Shown here in pieces: positions 28,808 through 40,734 of a stretch of 64,000 bases of DNA. Position 1 is the stretch's first letter, and each line of letters opens with the position of its first letter. Under the pieces are notes generated by a model that had not been told where the DNA came from, made no database searches, and was given only the letters and a program-made list of their open reading frames with translations. This DNA comes from Brevundimonas alba (GTDB lineage Bacteria > Pseudomonadota > Alphaproteobacteria > Caulobacterales > Caulobacteraceae), in assembly GCF_011927945.1 (NCBI RefSeq), contig NZ_JAATJM010000001.1, positions 1,807,501 through 1,871,500 on the forward strand, in the 5' to 3' direction. The position numbers were made by a program, and so were the translations under genes.

Positions 28808-29032
28808 CGCTGTGCTTACAATTCGGGAATCTATAGTCGGATAGTGGAGAAAGATTCCAGCGATTCCAGTGGCTTGACGAATTCTCGACGCGACTTTCCA
28901 TCCGGATAGCGCTGCCGATGTATGATGTGGCCAGCTCGGAAATCCAAGTGAAGGCCCCGCCAAAGCGGTCGACATCCCTGATCCGGACGTGACCTGACCG
29001 GCGCGGCGCGCCCTCCCAATCCGGAGATCATC
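28808..29032 (+). promoter_or_regulatory. upstream region of the GTA cluster with three GANTC sites
   Basis: No gene is seen in these 225 bases. Three CcrM-type GANTC sites lie within 40 bases (28827, 28853, 28862), two of them inside an inverted repeat GGAATCT/AGATTCC at 28826-28858. A TATGAT hexamer at 28921 and a TTGACG at 28874 are possible promoter parts but are not correctly spaced. GGAG lies six bases before the portal ATG. Confidence 0.5.
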
Positions 29033-30193
29033 ATGTTGAACTGGCGGCGACCCTTCGGGGGGCGACGGAGCGTTGTCGCGCCCGAAATCAAGGACAGCCG
29101 GGCCGGACCGCTGATCGCGCTGACCAGCGCCGGTCGCCCCCGCTGGACGCCGAGGGACTATGCAAGCCTGGCGGTGGAAGGCTTCGCTCGTAACGCGGTG
29201 GCCTATCGCTGCGTCCGGATGGTGGCCGAGGCGGCGGCGTCGACTCCGCTGGCCGTGTTCGTGGACGGCGCGAGGCAAGAAGACCACCCACTGGCGAAGC
29301 TGCTGGCGCAGCCGAACCCGGAGCAGTCAGGGACCGAATGGCTGGAGACGCTGTACGGGGGACTGCAGACGGCGGGAAACGCCTACGCCGAGGCCGTGGG
29401 CGACGAGACGCCGGCGGAGCTTTGGACGCTTCGGCCCGATCGGGTGAAGGTGACGCCGGGCCGGACGGGATGGGTCGAGGCCTACGAATATTCGGTCGAC
29501 GGGCGGTCGATCCGGATCGGGCGGCAGGCCGACGGCTGGATGCCCGTCATGCACCTGAAGCTGTTTCATCCGACGGACGACCACTACGGCTTTTCGCCGC
29601 TGGAAGCGGCAGCCACCGCGATCGACGTACACAACGCCTCGGGCGCCTGGAACAAGGCGCTGCTGGACAACGCAGCCCGGCCGAGTGGAGCGCTAGTTTA
29701 CGGCTCCAGAGACGGCGAGCGGCTGACGGGCGAGCAGTTCGAGGCCCTGCGCTCGCAGATCAACGAGAGCCACGCCGGGACGATGAACGCCGGGCGTCCG
29801 ATGATCCTGGAAGGCGGGCTGGACTGGAAGCCGATGAGCTGGACGCCGGCGGACATGGACTTCATCGCCGGCAAGCACGCGGCGGCGCGGGAGATCGCTC
29901 TGGCGTTCGGGGTGGCACCGCAGCTGCTGGGCATCCCGGGAGACGCGACCTATTCCAACTACCGCGAGGCCAACGCCGCCTTCTGGCGAGGGACGGTCGC
30001 GCCGCTGGTGCGCAAGACGGCAGCGGCTCTCACAGGATGGCTGGGGGGCCGGTTCGGCGGCGCGAGGATCGAAGCCGATCTGGACGGCGTGCCGGGGCTG
30101 CAGCCGGAGAGAGACGCCCTGTGGGCCCGGCTCGAGGCGGCCAGCTTCCTGACAGACGATGAACGGCGGCGAATGGCGGGAGTCGGCGCGTGA
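29033..30193 (+). CDS. GTA portal protein, HK97 family (RcGTA g3 type)
   Basis: A 386-residue phage portal protein forming the DNA entry ring of the capsid. Family segments include AVAYRCVRMVAEAAASTPL, the LWTLRPDRVKV stretch, GFSPLEAAATAIDVHNASG and EIALAFGVAPQLLGIPGDATYSNYREA. It is the first gene of the GTA cluster in this window; the terminase large subunit that normally precedes it was not found. GGAG ribosome site. Reading frame intact. Confidence 0.92.
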   Translation: MLNWRRPFGGRRSVVAPEIKDSRAGPLIALTSAGRPRWTPRDYASLAVEGFARNAVAYRCVRMVAEAAASTPLAVFVDGARQEDHPLAKLLAQPNPEQSGTEWLETLYGGLQTAGNAYAEAVGDETPAELWTLRPDRVKVTPGRTGWVEAYEYSVDGRSIRIGRQADGWMPVMHLKLFHPTDDHYGFSPLEAAATAIDVHNASGAWNKALLDNAARPSGALVYGSRDGERLTGEQFEALRSQINESHAGTMNAGRPMILEGGLDWKPMSWTPADMDFIAGKHAAAREIALAFGVAPQLLGIPGDATYSNYREANAAFWRGTVAPLVRKTAAALTGWLGGRFGGARIEADLDGVPGLQPERDALWARLEAASFLTDDERRRMAGVGA

Positions 30194-30417
30194 TGGACAT
30201 GCGGAAGATACCCGTGGCGGTCATCGCGGCGCTGGCGGTGCAGACGGCAGGGGCACTGGTGTGGGCGGGGGGCGCGGCGGCGCGGATCGCGACTCTGGAG
30301 GACCGGGTCGGGGAGCATCGGCAGGTCGCTGAACGGCTGGCGCGGCTGGAGGAGCAGAGCAAGGCCACGCGCGCCGCGGTCGAGCGGATCGAAACGCGTC
30401 TGGAGCGGGCGGAATGA
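30193..30417 (+). CDS. small membrane-anchored coiled-coil protein (g3.5-like)
   Basis: A 74-residue protein with one N-terminal hydrophobic helix (IPVAVIAALAVQTAGALVWA) and a charged helical tail (LEDRVGEHRQVAERLARLEE). It starts at an ATG overlapping the portal stop by one base; a GTG one codon upstream is also possible. GTA clusters of alphaproteobacteria usually carry a small open reading frame here. Function unknown. Confidence 0.7.
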   Translation: MDMRKIPVAVIAALAVQTAGALVWAGGAAARIATLEDRVGEHRQVAERLARLEEQSKATRAAVERIETRLERAE

Positions 30418-30920
30418 GCGCCCCGGCGGCGGCTCACGCGCCTTGGATGACTGTCGCGCCGGAGGGCCTGCGGATCGAGGGTTACGCCTCCCTCTGGGGC
30501 GTGGCCGATCTGAACGGGGACGTCGTCGCAAGGGGTGCGTTCGGCGCGAGCCTGGCGGCGACGGGCGGGGGCGGCGTACGGATGCTCCACCAGCATGAAA
30601 GCCGGTCTCCGGTCGGCGTATGGGACGAGATGGTCGAGGACGAGCGGGGGCTGCGCGTACGCGGGCGGATCATGGACTGGTCGGCCGAGGCGCGGTTCGC
30701 CCAGGCTTTGTCTAGAGCCGGCGCGCTCGACGGGCTGTCGATCGGCTTCCGCAGTCAAAGGGCGCGCCGGGACGGACGACTGAGAGTCCTCGTCGAGGTC
30801 GACTTGTGGGAGGTGTCGCTCGTGACGTTTCCGATGTTGCCGGCAGCCAGGTTCGGCCTTCAGACGCCGACTTCGCCGCCTTACGCCTTTAGGGGCTCTG
30901 GCGGGCCGGAAGGCGGCTGA
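30414..30920 (+). CDS. GTA prohead protease, HK97 U35 family (g4 type)
   Basis: A 168-residue protease. The typical features are IEGYASLWGVADLNGDVV, MLHQHESRSPVG with the catalytic His, GLSIGFR with the catalytic Ser, and WEVSLVTFPMLPAARF. It matures the capsid by cleaving the scaffold domain of the capsid protein. Its last 11 codons (LQTPTSPPYAFRGSGGPEGG region) overlap an antisense lipoprotein gene by 32 bases, and the tail may have been replaced when that gene arrived. Confidence 0.88.
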   Translation: MSAPAAAHAPWMTVAPEGLRIEGYASLWGVADLNGDVVARGAFGASLAATGGGGVRMLHQHESRSPVGVWDEMVEDERGLRVRGRIMDWSAEARFAQALSRAGALDGLSIGFRSQRARRDGRLRVLVEVDLWEVSLVTFPMLPAARFGLQTPTSPPYAFRGSGGPEGG

Positions 30921-31287
30921 TCTCGCTCTGCGGCACGACGCGGGCGACCTGCACATTGCAGGTCCTGAGGATCGCCGCGTGACTGCGGAGGTCCAGATGG
31001 GCCGGATCGCCGAGACAGATATCTGAGCCGGCCAGGCCGACGGCGCGCACCACCACCTCCGCACGGTCGGGCGTACTCAGGCAGGCCGCTTCGCCAGTCA
31101 GCAGAAGAGCCTCCCCGCTGCGCACCCTGACGTAGGCGCCGTCCGACGGCTGCAGCTTGATGAGGCGCGCTTCGGCGGGCGTGAAGCAGCGGCGGGCCGT
31201 TCCTTGTCCGTCGGCGGCGCCGTCGGTCGCCATGGGCGCGCAGCCGGTGACGATCAGAACCGTGGCGAGTGTTCCAACCAGACGCAT
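30889..31287 (-). CDS. DUF6491-like lipoprotein inserted in the GTA cluster
   Basis: A 132-residue lipoprotein (signal VGTLATVLIVTGC, lipobox Cys about residue 16). The mature part has the CFTPAEARLIKLQPSDGAYVRVRSGEALLL and ARVVPQSEISRLPARQ segments, which I associate with the DUF6491 family of Caulobacterales and Xanthomonadales; the assignment is from memory of the pattern. Start at 31287 with AAGGA eight bases upstream. It is opposite in direction to every other gene of the GTA cluster. Confidence 0.72.
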   Translation of the reverse strand: MRLVGTLATVLIVTGCAPMATDGAADGQGTARRCFTPAEARLIKLQPSDGAYVRVRSGEALLLTGEAACLSTPDRAEVVVRAVGLAGSDICLGDPAHLDLRSHAAILRTCNVQVARVVPQSEISRLPARQSP

Positions 31288-31483
31288 AACGGAGTTCCTT
31301 TCAGCAAAGCCCCTGTGAACAGACAGGAGCGCCGATGGTTCGGCCGAGTCCAGCACCGATTTCGCCGCCACCGCAGACCGCGGAGCGACTGAGCGGCCGG
31401 GCTCCTGACCAAGCGGCATTTCCAAGGGGCGTCCGCGCCTCGATCCCAACCGCATCCCGCGGTTTCTGAAAACCGGAGACACC

Positions 31484-32736
31484 ATGAAAGAGACCAAGAC
31501 GGCCTCGGGCACCCCCGAGGCGCGCGCCGCCATGCATGAAATGATGGCGGCGTTCGAGGCGTTCAAAGGGGCGAACGACGCCCGGCTGGACGAAATCGAG
31601 CGCAAGGCCTCGGCCGATACGCTGCTGGAGGAGAAGGTCGCCCGTATCGATCAGGCTGTCAGCAGCGCCCAGGCGCGGCTGGACCGCGTGGTGAGCGAAG
31701 GGCGGCGGCCCAGCATCGGAGGCGAGGCTGCCGGTCTTTCAGTCGGCTTGCGCTCGCTCTCGCGGTCGCATGGCGAGGAGACGAAGTCCGCTTTCGACGG
31801 CTACCTCAAGACGGGCCAGTCATTCGGCCTCGAGCTCAAGGCGGGACTTTCGACTGCCTCGAACTCGGCCGGCTATGTGGTGCCGGAGCAGACCGAACGC
31901 GCCATCGAGCGCCGGCTGATGGCCGGCTCGCCCATGCGCGAGATCGCCAGCGTCCGTACCGTGGGAGCCGGCGTGTTCAGAAAGCCGGTCTCAACCGCGG
32001 GCCTGGCGGCCGGCTGGGTCGCCGAGACGGCGGCGCGGCCGGAAACGGATCCGGCGACCCTGGCCTTGCTGGAGTTCCCGTCGGCCGATCTCTACGCCAG
32101 CCCGGCGGCCACGCAGAGCCTGCTGGACGACGCCCTGATCGACCTGGACGAGTGGCTGGCCTCGGAAGTCGAGGACGCCTTCGCCGCGCAGGAAACCAGC
32201 GCGTTCGTGAACGGCGACGGCGTCAACAAGCCCAAGGGCTTCCTGAGCTACGAGATCGTCGCCGAGGCGAGCCACGACTGGGGGAAGATCGGCTACGTCG
32301 CGTCAGGCGCGGCCGGGGCGTTCTCGGGAACCAGTCCGACAGACCGGCTGATCGACCTCGTCTACGCTCCCAAGGCGCGATACCGCCGAATGGCCGCTTC
32401 GTCATGAACCGCAGGACCGTTTCGGCGGTGCGCAAATTCAAGGACAGCGACGGCGCCTACATCTGGCAGCCGGCGCAGCGGCCGGGGGAAACCGCCAGCC
32501 TGCTCGGCTATGCGGTGACCGAGATCGAGACCATGCCGGACGTGGCGGCCAATACGGCGGCGATCGCCTTCGGCGACTTCCAGCGGGGCTATCTGATCGT
32601 TGATCGCGCGGGCGTGCGGGTGCTGCGGGATCCGTATTCCGCCAAGCCCTATGTGCTGTTCTACACCACCAAGCGCGTCGGCGGCGGGGTGCAGAATTTC
32701 GACGCCATCAAGGTGATGAAGTTCGCCGTGAGCTGA
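31484..32736 (+). pseudogene. GTA major capsid protein, HK97 fold (g5 type), frameshifted
   Basis: Residues 1-100 are the helical scaffold domain removed by the protease. The capsid core follows in frame to YAPKARYR at 32386, and the frame then stops at 32405-32407 after a few unrelated residues. In the -1 frame the sequence continues smoothly from NGRFVMNRRTVSAVRKFKD to the normal C-terminus FDAIKVMKFAVS at 32736. The simplest reading is one missing base near 32386-32388. Restored, it would be 417 residues, normal for the family. No slippery heptamer is visible. A sequencing error remains possible. Confidence 0.88.
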
Positions 32737-32754
32737 TCCCGGCTGAGAGAGGGG

Positions 32755-32783
32755 GACAGGCGGCGAGTACGCCGCCGCCTGTC
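32755..32783. other. strong hairpin between capsid and connector genes
   Basis: GACAGGCGGCG, loop AGTACGC, CGCCGCCTGTC is a perfect 11-bp stem without a T tract, 19 bases after the capsid stop. It could act as an mRNA 3'-stabiliser or partial terminator to raise capsid output over the downstream genes. Confidence 0.55.
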
Positions 32784-32875
32784 TCGCGCCCCGACCAGAT
32801 CGGCTTTGGCCGAACAGGAGACAGGCGGGCTGGAACGCTCGTCTCCCCCACCGCCACCAGAATTGCGAGGTTCCG

Positions 32876-33142
32876 ATGACCGCACCCGTCTCGCTGGCGG
32901 AAGCGAAGCTGTTTCTGCGCGTCGAGCACGACGCGGAGGACGCACTGATACAAGCCCTGATCGATGCGGCCCGAGCTCGGGTCGAGGGCGATGTGGGCCT
33001 GTCGCTCACTTCCATCTCGCCCGCTCCGTTGCGGCTGGGAATCCTGTTGCTCGCCCTGCGCGCCTACGAGCGTGACGACCGGGAAATGTCGATCCAGCCT
33101 GTCGAGGCCTGGATTGCACCTTATCGCATGGTGCGGCTGTGA
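32876..33142 (+). CDS. GTA head-tail connector, gp6-like
   Basis: An 88-residue helical protein beginning VSLAEAKLFLRVEHDAEDALIQALIDAARARVE, the pattern of phage gp6-like head-tail connectors (DNA packaging chaperones). It would form a ring below the portal. Its reading frame is intact and its end overlaps the next gene by four bases. It is shorter than the RcGTA protein as I recall it. Confidence 0.8.
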   Translation: MTAPVSLAEAKLFLRVEHDAEDALIQALIDAARARVEGDVGLSLTSISPAPLRLGILLLALRAYERDDREMSIQPVEAWIAPYRMVRL

Positions 33143-33432
33143 GACTCCTCGCCGGGCTGTTCGAGGGCGTGGAGAGCGAAACGCCCTACGGCGGACGGGC
33201 AGTCAGCTGGAACGCCCTCGGATCCGTCTGGCTGAAGCCCGGGCCCCGGCACCGGCGCGAAAAAAGCGAGCCGGGGGGCGCCCGAACCAGCGAGACGATG
33301 GCGGCGGAAGCGCGCGCAGACCCGCGCCTGACCGAGGATCGAGTGCTCAGGTTCGGCGGAGCCGACTGGCGCATCCGGTCGGCCGAAACCGTGGGCGGCA
33401 TCGCCATTCTGACCCTGGAGCGAACGACATGA
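33139..33432 (+). CDS. GTA head-tail adaptor protein (g7-like)
   Basis: A 97-residue protein with the beta-rich pattern of phage head closure / head-tail joining proteins: an opening RLLAGLFEGVESETPYGGRAVSWNALGSVW and a closing DRVLRFGGADWRIRSAETVGGIAILTLER. It sits between the connector and the DUF3168 gene in the usual GTA order, with four-base overlaps on both sides. Structural role inferred from family and order. Confidence 0.82.
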   Translation: MRLLAGLFEGVESETPYGGRAVSWNALGSVWLKPGPRHRREKSEPGGARTSETMAAEARADPRLTEDRVLRFGGADWRIRSAETVGGIAILTLERTT

Positions 33433-33833
33433 GCCACGAACTGGCCCTGCAAAAGGCCCTGATCGCGCATCTGGCCGGCGATGCCGGTGTGTGCGCCGTG
33501 CTTGGAGAGCCCCCGCGCATCTGGGATGCAGCGCCGGCCAGACCGGAGTTCCCCCACCTGCTGATCGGCCGGTCGGAAAGCCGTCCGGTCGGGGCCGACG
33601 GCGGCGGGGTGGAGCATGCGCTGACCCTGACCGCCGTCTCCCGATTTCGCGGCAGCGAGGAAGCGAAGGCGGTGCTGGCGGTGCTGCGATCGAGACTGAC
33701 AGACGCGTCTCTGGCGGCGGACGGCGTGCGGACGGTGAGCCTGAGGCTGACCTTCGCGGACGTCTATTCCGCAGCCGATGGATTGAGAACATTCGCGGTG
33801 CTGCGTGTGCGCGCCGTCACCGAGGAGGACTGA
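33429..33833 (+). CDS. GTA tail terminator, DUF3168 (g8 type)
   Basis: A 134-residue DUF3168 protein. It opens with ELALQKALIAHLAGDAGVCAVLG and contains FPHLLIGRSESRPVGADGGG and HALTLTAVSRFRGSEEAKAVL, typical for tail completion proteins that cap the tail tube at the head side. ATG at 33429 overlaps the adaptor stop (ATGA). Intact. Confidence 0.87.
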   Translation: MSHELALQKALIAHLAGDAGVCAVLGEPPRIWDAAPARPEFPHLLIGRSESRPVGADGGGVEHALTLTAVSRFRGSEEAKAVLAVLRSRLTDASLAADGVRTVSLRLTFADVYSAADGLRTFAVLRVRAVTEED

Positions 33834-33835
33834 CG

Positions 33836-34246
33836 ATGACGGCGCAGCGCGGCAAGGATATCCTGCTGAAGATCGAGGGGGCTCCCGGCGTATTCACGAC
33901 CGTGGCGGGCCTGAGGGCGCGGACGCTGTCGCTGAACGCGCGGACCGTCGACGCCACGGACGGAGACAGCGCAGGCCGGTGGCGCGAACTGCTGAACGGC
34001 GCCGGCGTGAAGTCGGCGGCCGTGGCCGGGCAGGGTATTTTTCGGGATGCGGCGTCGGATGCGCTGATCCGGGAGGCCTTCTTCGACCAGACCGCCCGGA
34101 TGTGGCGGCTGATCGTTCCGGATTTCGGCACGCTCGAAGGGCCGTTTCTGATCGCCGCGCTGGAATACGCCGGCGAGCATGAGGGGGAGGCGACGTTCGC
34201 CATCAGTCTGGCGAGCGCGGGCGAAGTCACCTTCGGCGCCGCCTGA
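33836..34246 (+). CDS. GTA major tail (tube) protein, TP901-1 type (g9)
   Basis: A 136-residue tail tube subunit: QRGKDILLKIEGAPGVFTTVAGLRARTLSLNARTVDATDGDS followed by WRELLNGAGVKSAAVAGQGIF, the standard opening of TP901-1-like tube proteins, and a C-terminal EGEATFAISLASAGEVTF. GAGGAGG lies seven bases upstream of the ATG, the strongest ribosome site of the tail genes, fitting a highly expressed repeat subunit. Confidence 0.9.
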   Translation: MTAQRGKDILLKIEGAPGVFTTVAGLRARTLSLNARTVDATDGDSAGRWRELLNGAGVKSAAVAGQGIFRDAASDALIREAFFDQTARMWRLIVPDFGTLEGPFLIAALEYAGEHEGEATFAISLASAGEVTFGAA

Positions 34247-34539
34247 TGGCGACCAACGGGATGCGAGGCGAAGTCCTCATGAGCCTCGCCGGAGCCGAGC
34301 GGCGCCTGTGCCTGACGCTCGGCGCGCTGGCGGAAATAGAGACAGCGCTGGGCTGCGACGGTCTCGCTTCTTTGGCGGAACGAATGCGGTCCTTGTCCGC
34401 GGTGGATCTGACCGTGGTTCTGGCCGCGCTGCTGAGAGGCGGCGGTGAAGAGGTCCTCGCGTCGGGTCTGGCCCAGGCGCCGGTCGATGCGCGCGAGGCG
34501 GCGGAGGCGGTGGCCAGGGCCTTCGCGGCGGCGGCATGA
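34246..34539 (+). CDS. GTA tail assembly chaperone (g10 type)
   Basis: A 97-residue protein of the 'gene transfer agent family protein' group: RLCLTLGALAEIETALGCDGLASLAERM and a helical C-terminus rich in Ala and Glu. The ATG overlaps the tail tube stop by one base and its end overlaps the next short gene by four. Proteins at this position act as tail assembly chaperones coating the tape measure; the role is by analogy. Confidence 0.82.
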   Translation: MATNGMRGEVLMSLAGAERRLCLTLGALAEIETALGCDGLASLAERMRSLSAVDLTVVLAALLRGGGEEVLASGLAQAPVDAREAAEAVARAFAAAA

Positions 34540-34712
34540 AAACGCCTTGGGGCGAGATGCTGCGGATCGCCGCCAGGCTGGGGGTCGCGCCGGGGGACTT
34601 CTGGCGCCTGTCGCTGACCGAATGGCGGATGCTGACGGAAAACCCGCCTTCGGCCTTGCCGATGTCGCGGGACCAATTCGAGCAAATGGCGGAGGCGTGG
34701 CCCGATGACTGA
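34536..34712 (+). CDS. short GTA tail assembly protein (g10.1 / DUF2376 type)
   Basis: A 58-residue protein: PWGEMLRIAARLGVAPGDFW, then RLSLTEWRMLTEN and a closing QMAEAWPDD. The tryptophan-rich pattern matches the Rcc01693/DUF2376 family that follows g10 in GTA clusters. It overlaps g10 by four bases and the tape measure gene by eight, so all three are translationally coupled. Its small size makes it easy to miss in automatic annotation. Confidence 0.82.
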   Translation: MKTPWGEMLRIAARLGVAPGDFWRLSLTEWRMLTENPPSALPMSRDQFEQMAEAWPDD

Positions 34713-35232
34713 CGAGCCCGGAGACGAAGGCATTGCGTCCATGGCGCGCCGAACGGCCGAGGCGGCGGCGGCGCTGGACGGGCTGAAGGAACCGGCCGAG
34801 AGGGCGGCGGCCTCGATCGAGAACGCGTTCGACCGCGCGGGCAGCGGTCTGGCCCGATCCCTGGCGCGAGCGGCCGCGGATGGCGAACTGTCACTCACCG
34901 AATTGGTGCGCGCAGTGCTGGCGGCGGTGAACGCGGCAGCCGGCGGGCGTGGCGGCGGGCTGTCCGGCGCGATCGCTCAAGCGGTCGGATCGATCTTCTC
35001 GGGGTCCAGGGCCGACGGCGGGCCTGTCGCCGCAGGAGGCGCGTATCTGGTCGGGGAGCGGGGACCGGAGCTGTTTCGCCCGGCCGGTGCAGGCGCGATC
35101 GAGCCCGCCAGCGGGTCCAACATAACAGTCAACGTGCAGGTCGAGGGCGGGCCAGAAGCCCTGCTGAGGTCCGAAGCGCAGATCGCCCAGGCGCTCGCAC
35201 GGGCGGTCTCTCTGGGCGCGCGCCGCCTCTAG
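34705..35232 (+). CDS. short GTA tail tape measure protein (g11 type)
   Basis: A 175-residue tape measure protein. Residues 1-60 are helical, 65-100 are an Ala/Gly-rich hydrophobic segment, and the C-terminal motif GGPVAAGGAYLVGERGPELFRPAGAGAIEP is the lambda-type tape measure end. GTA tails are short, so a tape measure far below phage length is expected. Reading frame intact; begins inside the preceding gene. Confidence 0.87.
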   Translation: MTDEPGDEGIASMARRTAEAAAALDGLKEPAERAAASIENAFDRAGSGLARSLARAAADGELSLTELVRAVLAAVNAAAGGRGGGLSGAIAQAVGSIFSGSRADGGPVAAGGAYLVGERGPELFRPAGAGAIEPASGSNITVNVQVEGGPEALLRSEAQIAQALARAVSLGARRL

Positions 35233-35269
35233 GCTTCCGCGCTGCGGAACAATCCAAGGAGACATCGAG

Positions 35270-35899
35270 ATGGCCTTTCACGAGGTGAGGCTGCCCGCGC
35301 GTCTGGCGTTTGGATCAACCGGCGGCGTCGAACGCCGAACGGAAATCGTGACGCTCGGCTCAGGCTTCGAGCGACGGTCCACGCCCTGGGCTCATGGCCG
35401 TCGGCGCTATCTGATCGGGGCGAACCTGAAGTCGCTGGACGACATGGCGACCCTGACCGCCTTCTTCGAAGCCCGGCTTGGACGGCTGTATGGCTTTCGC
35501 TTCCGGGATTTCGCCGACTTCAAATCGTGTCCGCCGAGCGGGACGATATCGTCTGTCGACCAAGGCATCGGCGCCGGCGACGGCGCGCGCACCGTATTCG
35601 ATCTGACGAAGCGGTACGACGATGACCAAGCGGCGTGCGAACGCCGGATACACAAACCGGTCGAGGGCACGGTCGCGATCGCGGTGGATGGAGTTGAACT
35701 CGACGCGGCGGTTTTCGCCGTCGACCTCACGACAGGAACCGTCACGCTCGCGACACCCCCGGCCAACGGCGCCGTCGTTACGGCGGGCTACGAGTTCGAC
35801 GTCCCGGTCCGGTTCGACGCGGATCGGATCGATGTGACGCTGGAAAGCTTCGCTGCGGGACGGATGGCCGCCGTGCCCCTCATCGAAGTGAGGGTCTGA
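35270..35899 (+). CDS. GTA distal tail protein, DUF2460 (g12 type)
   Basis: A 209-residue DUF2460 protein. It opens with FHEVRLPARLAFGSTGGVERRTEIV and shows RRYLIGANLKSLDDMATLTAFFEARLGRLYGFRFRDFADFKS, both diagnostic. It forms the hexamer at the tail tip that joins tube and baseplate hub. AAGGAGA precedes the ATG. Intact. Confidence 0.92.
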   Translation: MAFHEVRLPARLAFGSTGGVERRTEIVTLGSGFERRSTPWAHGRRRYLIGANLKSLDDMATLTAFFEARLGRLYGFRFRDFADFKSCPPSGTISSVDQGIGAGDGARTVFDLTKRYDDDQAACERRIHKPVEGTVAIAVDGVELDAAVFAVDLTTGTVTLATPPANGAVVTAGYEFDVPVRFDADRIDVTLESFAAGRMAAVPLIEVRV

Positions 35900-35901
35900 G
35901 C

Positions 35902-36555
35902 ATGCGCCAGATACCCGCCGAGCTGGCCGCCCGCATCGAGAGCGGGGCGTCGACCCTGTGCCATGCCTGGCTGCTGAAAAGAGCCGATGGCCTCCAGCTG
36001 GGCTTCACCGACCATGATCGGGACCTGGAGCTCGGAGGCATTACCTGCAGGGCCGCCAGCGGGTGGACAACGGGCGCAGCTGAAAGCGCGATCGGCCTGA
36101 CGGGCGGATCGGCGGCAGCGGCGGGCGTTCTCGACGACATCGCCATCTGCGAAGCGGATATCTCAGCCGGCCTGTATGACGGCGCGCAGGTCGCGTTGTG
36201 GCGGGTCGATTGGCGCCGGCCGGACCTGAAGGTGCGGCTTTGGGTGGCGCGGCTCGCCCGGATCCGTCGGGAGGGCGAGGGGTTCACTGCCGACCTCGAG
36301 GGCCCGATGGCGGCGCTGGAGCGGGTGACAGGGCGCACCTATGGCCGCGACTGCGACGCGCAACTGGGCGACGCACGATGTCGGGTGGAACTCGACGGCT
36401 TCCCCGGCGCGGTTTGCGACAAACGCTGGGCCACCTGCGTCGGTACATTCAGCAACGGCGTCAACTTCCAGGGCTTTCCGGACATTCCCGGCGACGACTT
36501 CCTGACGGCTGCGCCGGTGCAGGGCGGTCGCAACGATGGTCGGAGCCGGCGATGA
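35902..36555 (+). CDS. GTA baseplate hub protein, DUF2163/BR0599 (g13 type), shortened
   Basis: A 217-residue protein with the DUF2163 start (IPAELAARIESGASTLCHAWLL) and LTDHDRD-like LGFTDHDRDLELGGI, then the end of the BR0599 domain (CDKRWATCVGTFSNGVNFQGFPDIPGDDF) where paired cysteines may bind a [4Fe-4S] cluster in RcGTA. Between GDARCRVELD and VCDKRWATC only about ten residues remain, whereas homologues I recall carry roughly 65-75 more there. An in-frame internal deletion is suggested. Its end overlaps the peptidase gene by four bases. Confidence 0.85.
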   Translation: MRQIPAELAARIESGASTLCHAWLLKRADGLQLGFTDHDRDLELGGITCRAASGWTTGAAESAIGLTGGSAAAAGVLDDIAICEADISAGLYDGAQVALWRVDWRRPDLKVRLWVARLARIRREGEGFTADLEGPMAALERVTGRTYGRDCDAQLGDARCRVELDGFPGAVCDKRWATCVGTFSNGVNFQGFPDIPGDDFLTAAPVQGGRNDGRSRR

Positions 36556-37016
36556 GCGCGGCGGCCGCGATTGCGGCTCGAGGTTGGCTGGGCACGCCCT
36601 ATCGTCATCAAGCCAGCCTGAGAGGAGAGGGCGCGGACTGTCTCGGGCTGGTGCGAGGGGTGTGGCGGGAGCTGCTCGGAGCAGAGCCGGAAGTCGTGCC
36701 GGCTTACCGCCCGGACTGGGCGGAGGTCGGCGGCGAGGAAACCCTGCTGCGCGTGGCGCGGCGCTGGCTGACGGAAATACCTCTCGCATCCGCCAGGGCC
36801 GGTGACGTGCTGCTGTTTCGAATGGCTCCGGGCTGTCCGGCGAAGCACTGCGCGATCCTGAGCGAGGGCGCCCTGGCCGGCGGGGCCGAGCCGCGCATGA
36901 TCCACGCCTACTGGGGTCGGGCGGTGGTCGAGAGCTGGATGGGCGTCTGGTGGCGGAGCCGGCTGGTGGCCGCGTTCGCCTGGCCTTCCCAAGGAACCGA
37001 CAGGGAGATCGGCTGA
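36552..37016 (+). CDS. GTA cell wall peptidase, NlpC/P60 (g14 type)
   Basis: A 154-residue NlpC/P60 cysteine peptidase. The catalytic Cys is in GEGADCLGLVRGVW, the His in PAKHCAILSEG, and a third polar residue in MIHAYWGRAVVESW. In GTA particles it digests peptidoglycan to open the way for DNA entry. Start overlaps the hub gene by four bases and its stop overlaps the megatron ATG by one. Intact. Confidence 0.9.
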   Translation: MSAAAAIAARGWLGTPYRHQASLRGEGADCLGLVRGVWRELLGAEPEVVPAYRPDWAEVGGEETLLRVARRWLTEIPLASARAGDVLLFRMAPGCPAKHCAILSEGALAGGAEPRMIHAYWGRAVVESWMGVWWRSRLVAAFAWPSQGTDREIG

Positions 37017-40000
37017 TGGCGCAGGTGGTTCTGGGCGGGATCGGGGCCTCGATCGGAGGCGGGTTCGGAGGCGCCCTCGGCGCTGCGCTCGGTGGAATGC
37101 TGGATCAGGCGCTGGTCGCCGGACTGGAGCCGGCGCGCCAGAAGGGCCCGCGGCTCAGCGCTCTTGCCCTGCAGGGAACGGCTGAAGGCGCGCCGATGGC
37201 CTGCGTCTTCGGCCGCGCGCGGGTGGTCGGACAGATCATCTGGGCGGCCCGGTTCCTTGAAGGCCGCAAGACATCGTCGGCCGGCAAGGGCGGGCCGCGC
37301 ACGGTGGAGTACGACTACTCACTGAGCTTCGCTGTGGCCCTGTGCGAGGGCGCGGTGGATGGCATCGGCCGCGTCTGGGCGGACGGTCAGCCGATGGACC
37401 TGACAGGTGTAACGATGCGGCTGCATCGTGGGGCTGACAACCAGACCCCGGATTCTCTGATAGAGGCCATCGAGACCGGCGCGCCCGCGTATCGCGGTAC
37501 GGCATACGTTGTGTTCGAGGACCTGCCGTTGGGCCCTTACGGCAATCGGCCGCCGCAGCTTGCATTCGAGGTGTTCCGACGGGCCCGCGGGTCGGAGCCG
37601 CGACTTGAGGACCGGCTCGAGGGCGTCTGTCTGATACCCGGTGCGGGCGAGTTCGTTCTGGCGACCGAGGCGGTCGTGAGGCGTGAAGGTCTGACGAGGA
37701 CGGCGCCCGAGAACGTCCATGCCGGAAGTGGGGGGACAGATCTCGCGGTGTCCCTTGATCAGCTTCAGGCGCAGGCCCCCAATCTGAAACGGGTCAGCCT
37801 CGTGATCGGCTGGTTCGGCAACGATCTGAGGGCGGATCACTGCGTGGTCAGGCCGGGCGTGGAGCGTCTCGATAAACCGACCGAGCCGATGGTTTGGTCT
37901 GTGGCGGGTCTGATGCGGGGCGAGGCCCACCTGATTTCGCAGAGCGGCGGCGCACCGGCCTATGGCGGAACGCCGTCAGACGACGCCGTGCGACAGGCCG
38001 TCGCGGAACTGAAGGCACGCGGGCTGGAAGTGACCCTTTATCCCTTCGTCTTCATGGATGTGCCGGCCGGCAATGGCCTTCCCGATCCCGACGGCGCGGC
38101 CGAGCAGCCTGCCTATCCCTGGCGCGGGCGCATTCGGGGCGAGGACGGAGTCGGGGCGACGGCCGAGGTCGCGGCTCTCTTCGGCGACGAGGCCGGCTGG
38201 GGACTGCGCCGCCTCGCCCTGCACTACGCGCAACTGGCTGCGGAAACGGGCGCGGAAGGGCTGTTGTTCGGCTCGGAGATGCGGGGGCTGACCTGGACGC
38301 GTGATGCCGACGGCGGTTTTCCAGCCGTGGAGGCCTTCCGTGCACTGGCAAACGAATGCCGCGCCGTCGTCGGAGCTGACGTCAAGCTGTCGTATGCGGC
38401 GGACTGGTCGGAGTATTCCGGATGGCGCGAAGAAGCGGACGTGATCTTCCATCTCGATCCGCTGTGGGCTGATCCCGAGGTCGATTACGTGGGTGTCGAC
38501 TGGTATCCGCCCTTGGCAGACTGGCGAGACGGCGACGGCGGCGTGGACGGGGAGGTCTTCTCCGGTCCGGACGATCCGGCGGCTCTGGCCGCGCAGGTCG
38601 CGGGCGGTGAGGGCTTCGACTGGTTCTATGCCTCGCCGGCCGACAGGGCTGCGCAACAGCGCACGCCCGTCGTCGATACCGCTCACGAAGAGAATTGGGT
38701 CTTTCGGTCGAAGGATCTGAAGGGCTGGTGGTCCAACGCACACCACGACCGGGCCGATGGCGTTCGCGCGGTTGAGCCGACTGCATGGGTTCCGGGTATG
38801 AAGCCGGTCCGTCTGACGGAGTTCGCTGTCCCGCCGTGGATCGGGGCGGCAACGCGCCGCACCTGTTTCAGGACGCCAAGAGTTCGGAGGGCGGGCTGCC
38901 TCCATTCTCCACCGGCGGCCGGGATGATCAGATGCAGCGCCGCGCGATCGAGGCCGTGCTGGGTCATTTTGCCGATCCGGACAACAACCCAGTGTCGTCG
39001 GTCTATGGCGGACCGATGCTTGAGGCCGCCGACCTCTGGTGCTGGGACGCGCGTCCCTGGCCGCACTTTCCGGGGCGATCGGATGTCTGGGCCGACGCCC
39101 CGGCTTGGCGCACCGGTCACTGGCTGAACGGCCGGCTCGGGGGCGACACGCGCGATCTGATCTCCGAAATCCTGAGGCGTGGCGGGCTTTCCGCGGGTGA
39201 GGTCGAGGTGGGTGCGTCCTCCGGAGAGGTGCAGGGCTACGTCATCGACCGGCCGATGCGGACGCGCGACGCACTCGAGCCCCTCCTGGCCGCTCTCGGC
39301 ATGGTCGCGGCGGAGCGGGACGGCCGGGTGGCAATCGTTGGGGACGAGCCCGCGACGCTGGAGCTCTCCGCGGAAGCCTTGGCGCTTCCCGCCAACGGTG
39401 GAAGCGTGCGGGCGGATCGGACGCTCGAAGCCGCGCCGTCCGCAGCGAGAGTCAGGTTCATCGACGGCTCCCGGGACTACCAGACCGGTTCGGTCGTGCT
39501 CAGGACTGCGAGCGAAGGTGGCGGGCTGGACATCGACCTTCCCGCCGTATGTTCGCGCGCTCTGGCTCTGACCGCCGCGGCGAGACGGCTGGAGCAGGGC
39601 TCGGATCGCCTGACGCTGGCGCTTGGGCCGCTGGAGTCTCTGACAGTTGAGCCGGGCGATGTGGTGACGGTCGAGGCGGACGAGCGAAATTGGCGCGTTG
39701 GCCGGCGCGACAGGGACGAGACGCCTTCGGCCCTTCTCGAACCCACGTCTGGCGTCAGCATGGGCGAAGACGACGGCATCCCGTCGCCGGGAGAGCCATC
39801 GGGGCTGATCGGAGAGCCGTTCTTCCGCATGATAGATCCGCCGCCGCTGGCGGGCGTGGAGGAGGACCGCCGACCGATCGCCGTTGTCTCCGGCGACCCA
39901 TGGCGACCGATGCGGGTGTTCGCTGGAGCGGACTCGTCGAGCCTGACGACGCGAGGGGACGTCGGCGAGCCGGCCACGGTCGGTATCCTGGCTTCGGCAT

Positions 40001-40734
40001 TGGGCTTCGGCGTCTGCAATCGTTGGGACGAAGCCAACGTGCTGGACGTTCGTGTCGAAGGCCGGGCGCCGGAAAGCCTGTCTGTCCATTCGGTGCTGGC
40101 CGGCGGCAACGCCCTTGCCGTCGAGACGGCGTCGGGCTGGGAGATCATCCAGTTCCGTGCTGCGCAATTGATCGGGGACGGTATCTGGCGACTGTCGGGC
40201 CTGCTGCGCGGTCAACAGGGCACCGATGTGGAAGCCATGGAGGGCGCCGAAACTGGCACCATCGTTGTCTTCCTGGATCAGAGCACGGTGCGTGTGGCTT
40301 CGCCGTCGTCGGAACGCGGGCTGTCAATGGTCTGGCGAGCCGGTCCGGTCGGCGCGCCCGCCGGTGGAGCGGGTGTCAGCGATACGGCTTTCACGCCGGG
40401 AGGCCGGAATGACCGACCGTGGAGTCCCGCTCATTTGCGAAGCGCACTTCGAGTCGACGGCGGATTCGATCTCGGATGGGTCGCCCGCAACCGGATTGAC
40501 GGGGATCGGTGGGACGGGGAGCCGGCGATGTCCGACTCCTTGCGCTTTCAGGTCAGAATTCTCGACGCCGGAGACCCGGTTCGCGTCTTCGAAGTCGACG
40601 CTCAGGCCGCGGTCTATTCCGCGGTGGATGTGGCCGCAGACTTCGAGGGCGATCTGGCCGGCGCCGAGGCAGCGGTGGCGCAGTGGGGCGAAGGCTACGG
40701 CTGGGGCACGGAGGCGCGCGTCCGGCTGGTCTGA
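37016..40734 (+). pseudogene. GTA megatron tail fibre/hub protein (g15 type), frameshifted
   Basis: The largest GTA gene. The N-terminal part (GASIGGGFGGALGAALGGML, LEGRKTSSAGKGGPRTVEYDY) and the TIM-barrel domain (YAADWSEYSGWREEADV, DYVGVDWYPPLADWRDGDGG) read in frame to RLTEF at 38824. There the frame runs on as unrelated sequence to a stop at 39127, while the -1 frame continues as CPAVDRGGNAPHLFQDAKSS and runs to the true end at 40734. One G seems missing at 38825. Restored, it would be 1239 residues, normal for the family. No programmed-frameshift signal was seen. Confidence 0.9.

Follow-up and report, generated by a model that had tools for sequence, protein, structure and literature searches.

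Two single-base losses in the capsid and tail hub genes of an RcGTA-like cluster of Brevundimonas alba: a probable case of very recent inactivation

Introduction

GTAs are maintained by selection even though producing them kills the cell, which raises the question of how, and how often, they are lost. The GTA of Rhodobacter capsulatus (RcGTA; native particle, 6TBA) has the same gene order, g3 to g15, as the cluster of Brevundimonas alba described here, and its proteins are the best solved relatives of the B. alba capsid, distal tail protein and g15 product. The B. alba cluster differs from RcGTA in that the capsid and g15 genes carry frame breaks, and terS and terL are missing from the cluster. 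The GTA of Caulobacter crescentus (CcGTA; CCNA_02880-02861, gafYZ) has a homologous head-tail cluster, together with gafZ; unlike that of B. alba, it is intact, with the terminase gene gtaT as its first gene (PMC11150451). In C. crescentus, the GTA-dependent effect disappeared when the capsid, the portal or the terminase was deleted, so each of the three is needed (PMC9632790).

RcGTA-like clusters that are incomplete have been described in abundance (PMC9765227). The B. alba cluster adds to them and stands out in that so little of it is damaged. We found that g5 and g15 each lack one base, and we consider it probable that these two separate losses inactivated the cluster very recently.

Results

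The window that we analysed is the 64,000-nucleotide stretch C1:1807501-1871500 of the B. alba genome (G000; 3.06 Mb in two contigs, 100% complete, contamination 0.01). Positions are those of the window unless C1 is given, and the cluster genes lie on the plus strand. The first of them here is the portal gene g3 (29033-30193; Pfam Phage_portal, 1e-87), with 90% identity to the sister genome G018, followed by the prohead protease gene g4 (30414-30920; Pfam Peptidase_S78, 5e-24). Beyond the capsid gene are the head-tail connector g6 (32876-33142; Pfam Phage_connect_1), the head completion or stopper protein g7 (33139-33432; a sub-threshold Pfam Phage_HCP match of 2e-4, orthologous in 20 loci), the tail terminator g8 (33429-33833; PHROG 176), the major tail protein g9 (33836-34246; PHROG 1407, 2e-26) and the tail protein g10 (34246-34539; PHROG 2115). 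The short tape-measure gene g11 (34705-35232) has the length typical of the genus, with a sub-threshold profile match and aligned relatives. The distal tail protein g12 (35270-35899) matches Pfam DUF2460 (8e-82) and RcGTA Rcc01695 (E 2e-73), and it is followed by the hub protein g13 (35902-36555) and the minor tail protein g14 (36552-37016; PHROG 329), whose product we take to be NlpC/P60 peptidase-like. All head-tail genes other than g5 and g15 are intact and full length. An internal deletion in g13, which matches Pfam BR0599 at positions 53-80 only, was considered and rejected, as the short form is found genus-wide. Between the protease and capsid genes, the minus strand carries a 133-codon lipoprotein-like ORF (30892-31290) that has no relatives in 20 loci; in Caulobacter, a putative bleomycin-resistance gene, CCNA_02873, adjoins the capsid gene in antisense.

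Genes g3 to g15 are collinear with those of the relatives, giving at least nine collinear RcGTA head-tail genes, and RcGTA proteins (6TBA/6TB9/6TEH) are the closest characterised relatives. The nearest named relatives of the cluster are Brevundimonas. An upstream neighbour that is the same in several relatives, together with dN/dS values mostly below 0.25, indicates that the cluster is inherited vertically, occupies a conserved locus and is under purifying selection. A prophage was rejected on the collinearity, the conserved locus and the best matches to RcGTA. The cluster is classed as an RcGTA-like GTA of Brevundimonas; a working member would be predicted to make particles that package random host DNA. 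The genome also carries the activator gene gafZ (DUF6456; G000:C1:1716167-1716565), which scores 121.7 bits, above the cut-off, in an open frame; expression of the cluster may therefore still be triggered.

The first capsid ORF (31484-32407) encodes 307 amino acids, 301 of them in frame and six out of frame, before a TGA stop at 32405-32407. It reads as HK97 capsid sequence up to YAPKARYR. The missing 116 C-terminal residues, PNGRFVMNRRTV...KFAVS, are encoded at 32386-32736 in the −1 frame. The Pfam Phage_capsid profile is split cleanly between the two pieces, with positions 2-166 on the first and 165-280 on the second. The best solved relative of the N-terminal piece is the RcGTA capsid Rcc01687 (6TBA/6TB9; E 3e-41), and the C-terminal piece matches PDB 6TB9 with E 6e-40. 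Across its 116 residues, the latter shares 86-93% identity with relatives, so the match in the −1 frame is not due to chance. The preliminary description had called this gene the major capsid gene of a GTA, and the profile and RcGTA matches bear this out.

That description had also placed a one-base deletion at about 32386-32388, with the protein continuing in the −1 frame, and had proposed alignment with intact Brevundimonas capsids. Both frames and the same-genus alignment agree with this position and direction. Among the same-genus loci for which sequence across the break point was compared, intact capsids read TAY-CGN-CCN-AAY (YRPN) there in a single open frame, mostly of 408-417 amino acids, and B. 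alba differs by exactly one missing base, at 32384-32388. Nearly all relatives checked read straight through: the capsid frame is unbroken in 79 of 80 species loci, as far as each genome contig reaches, and the sole exception belongs to another decayed cluster. The capsid is full length and in one frame in 77 of 80 IMG/VR relatives; two of the other three stop at a contig edge, and the third is the same sequence as the window.

Could ribosomes make the capsid across both frames, or as two separate chains, through slippage or through stop-restart coupling at the ATGA overlap? An ATG of the C-terminal frame (32404-32406) does overlap the TGA at 32405-32407. However, this ATG is the ordinary methionine of VMN, conserved and in frame in the intact relatives, the break has no slippery heptamer of the form X XXY YYZ, and no relative that we checked uses two frames in this way. 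Such decoding would also leave the break in g15 unexplained, and we regard it as very improbable.

A functional GTA needs an intact capsid gene. That of B. alba is not intact in the deposited sequence, and the cluster is therefore filed as an inactivated member rather than a working GTA. Truncation would remove roughly 40% of the HK97 domain, with the final 116 residues of a protein of about 417, and the shell should then fail to assemble.

The second break is in g15, the megatron or tail hub gene, and was missing from the preliminary description. The first part (37016-39127; PHROG 4271, 1e-205) has 603 residues in frame (37016-38824), followed by about 100 residues out of frame before a stop. 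Compared with 15 aligned relatives, B. alba has one base fewer within 38822-38828, and the loss is placed near 38824-38827. The rest of the protein, about residues 604-1237, is in an open frame at 38785-40734 (PHROG 4271, 5e-106), and this C-terminal half matches the RcGTA megatron (6TBA/6TEH) with E 1e-65.

Both losses are of one G or C within a run of two to three. Loss of a single G or C in a short run is the usual form of residual long-read error, and both breaks could be sequencing or assembly errors, in which case the strain has an intact capsid and g15 and may make particles. The remaining head-tail genes, which are all open, fit an error as well. A search for an independent resequencing gave a single other copy, IMGVR_UViG_2829754414_000001, which is letter-identical over 10,095 bp (29033-39127), may be the same assembly, and is not known to be independent. 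IMG/VR lists exactly this segment of the window as a viral contig (L262/L342), which runs up to the false stop that the break in g15 produces.

Genes predicted in 1.6 Mb of G012, a relative with a complete genome, were searched against 740 kb of the B. alba genome, which gave 286 orthologous genes and 289 kb of alignable sequence, about 9% of the genome. Genuine frameshifts were found in the capsid gene and g15 only, both inside the 10.4 kb GTA; the probability that both would fall there by chance is (10.4/289)^2 = 0.0013. The remaining orthologous coding sequence, about 279 kb outside the GTA, had none. At an error rate consistent with this zero, about 0.1 or fewer breaks are expected in the GTA, against the two observed. 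Four further candidates from the first assay and one from a wider assay were rejected as shadow-frame, out-of-frame 5' extensions over neighbouring genes. With the only two frameshifts both in the GTA, real inactivation is favoured over read error, and we judge error to be unlikely, though with an appreciable chance. The preliminary description had held the GTA to be dead unless the read is wrong. The inference from capsid loss is sound, given the Caulobacter knock-outs; the proviso is weakened and carries the appreciable chance just stated.

The site of terL in many relatives (28808-29032, plus strand; 225 bp), between the upstream kinase and the portal gene, has no terminase remnant in B. 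alba, a point that the preliminary description had missed. No terL was found beside the portal gene in the sequence examined of the sister loci L118, L120, L121, L124 and L128. Further clusters of the genus with intact structural genes did not yield one either, so we take its absence as a variant, not as grounds for exclusion. Judged by these loci, the in-cluster absence is an older, clade-wide trait common to the sister species. The cluster might then have already been functionless in the clade for want of a terminase, with the frame breaks late and neutral. Against this, the clade's structural genes evolve under strong purifying selection, with dN/dS mostly 0.03-0.25, and GTA-type terminases stand alone in the genomes of B. 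alba and the sister G018. We consider prior loss of function quite unlikely.

The B. alba genome has two such stand-alone terminases outside the cluster. A TerS-TerL pair is at C1:844888-846680 on the minus strand (L095 9888-11683), with no other GTA head-tail genes nearby. A TerS-TerL fusion ORF is at C1:2101518-2103581 on the plus strand (L096 9440-11581), near aroA, and its orthologue in G018 matches it from end to end at 76% identity. The fusion has two inserts that resemble in-frame palindromic repeats, and G018 has extra C-terminal TerL fragments near its orthologue. P282 and C292 are reported to distinguish GTA TerLs from viral TerLs (PMC7947584). When these positions are assigned by motif rather than from an RcGTA alignment, the TerL at C1:844888-846680 has both (DPP...DACG), and the fusion has the cysteine only. 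Stand-alone TerLs are present in all four genomes judged to lack an in-cluster terL (G000, G018, G032 and G010), compared with four of about 20 that have one (Fisher p about 0.007 in our own tally, relatedness ignored). A stand-alone terminase that acts in trans for the GTA is plausible, with the pair at C1:844888-846680 as a possible candidate. In Brevundimonas lenta (L126 5099-6256), the in-cluster TerL is 59% identical to the usual GTA TerL, while the adjoining portal is 83% identical; here the terminase appears to have been replaced by another at the same position.

The codons after the breaks bear on their age. After the capsid break, dN/dS is 0.03-0.08 compared with the sisters, and none of the 115 codons has an amino-acid change unique to B. 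alba; after the g15 break, dN/dS is 0.17-0.25, within the range of intact sisters. The nearest public capsids, L263 and L264, are intact, with dS of about 0.35-0.39 after the break. Selection is thus not relaxed downstream of either break, which a read error would equally produce; if the lesions are real, they would be very recent on the B. alba branch.

Among 57 further Brevundimonas-type loci in which the whole cluster could be seen, 12 have a missing or shortened structural gene; some of these are draft metagenome assemblies, and some lesion flags may be assembly or alignment effects. Most of the lesions are deletions. The clear cases are B. terrae, B. huaxiensis, two B. diminuta strains, B. 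denitrificans and strain G8. B. huaxiensis (L189) has a capsid frame break, with the capsid fused to a g15 remnant. B. terrae (L179) has kept full-length, open protease and capsid genes and lost the portal, g6-g11, g13 and g14. Genes for the head or tail are likewise lost at this locus in B. diminuta (L157/L178). The clusters of these three species carry large deletions, whereas B. alba differs by only two single bases. The lesions at other loci indicate that GTA loss is recurrent in the genus, in which B. alba looks like an early stage, and its case is most likely one of several independent losses. Our literature search found no paper that joins a GTA cluster with a frameshift.

Discussion

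We propose that one-base losses struck the major capsid and tail hub genes while the other head-tail genes and gafZ remained intact. Because GTA producers lyse, such loss may be favoured: non-producers would still receive DNA, so that loss of production could spread in a population. The repeated lesions in other Brevundimonas clusters would fit such spread, and the B. alba genome would represent its early stage. A fuller account can be offered only tentatively, and we hold it as a possibility rather than as our expectation. In it, stand-alone GTA-type TerS-TerL loci, acting in trans, would provide the packaging motor of the clade, and B. alba, its GTA otherwise whole and still under regulation, would have become a natural non-producer through two new single-base losses.

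If resequencing shows the breaks to be errors, the locus is an ordinary one. If the losses are real, as we think probable, a single genus would hold a graded series of clusters, from intact ones through one with only two single-base lesions to partly and almost fully deleted ones, in which the loss of a GTA may be dated and tested.
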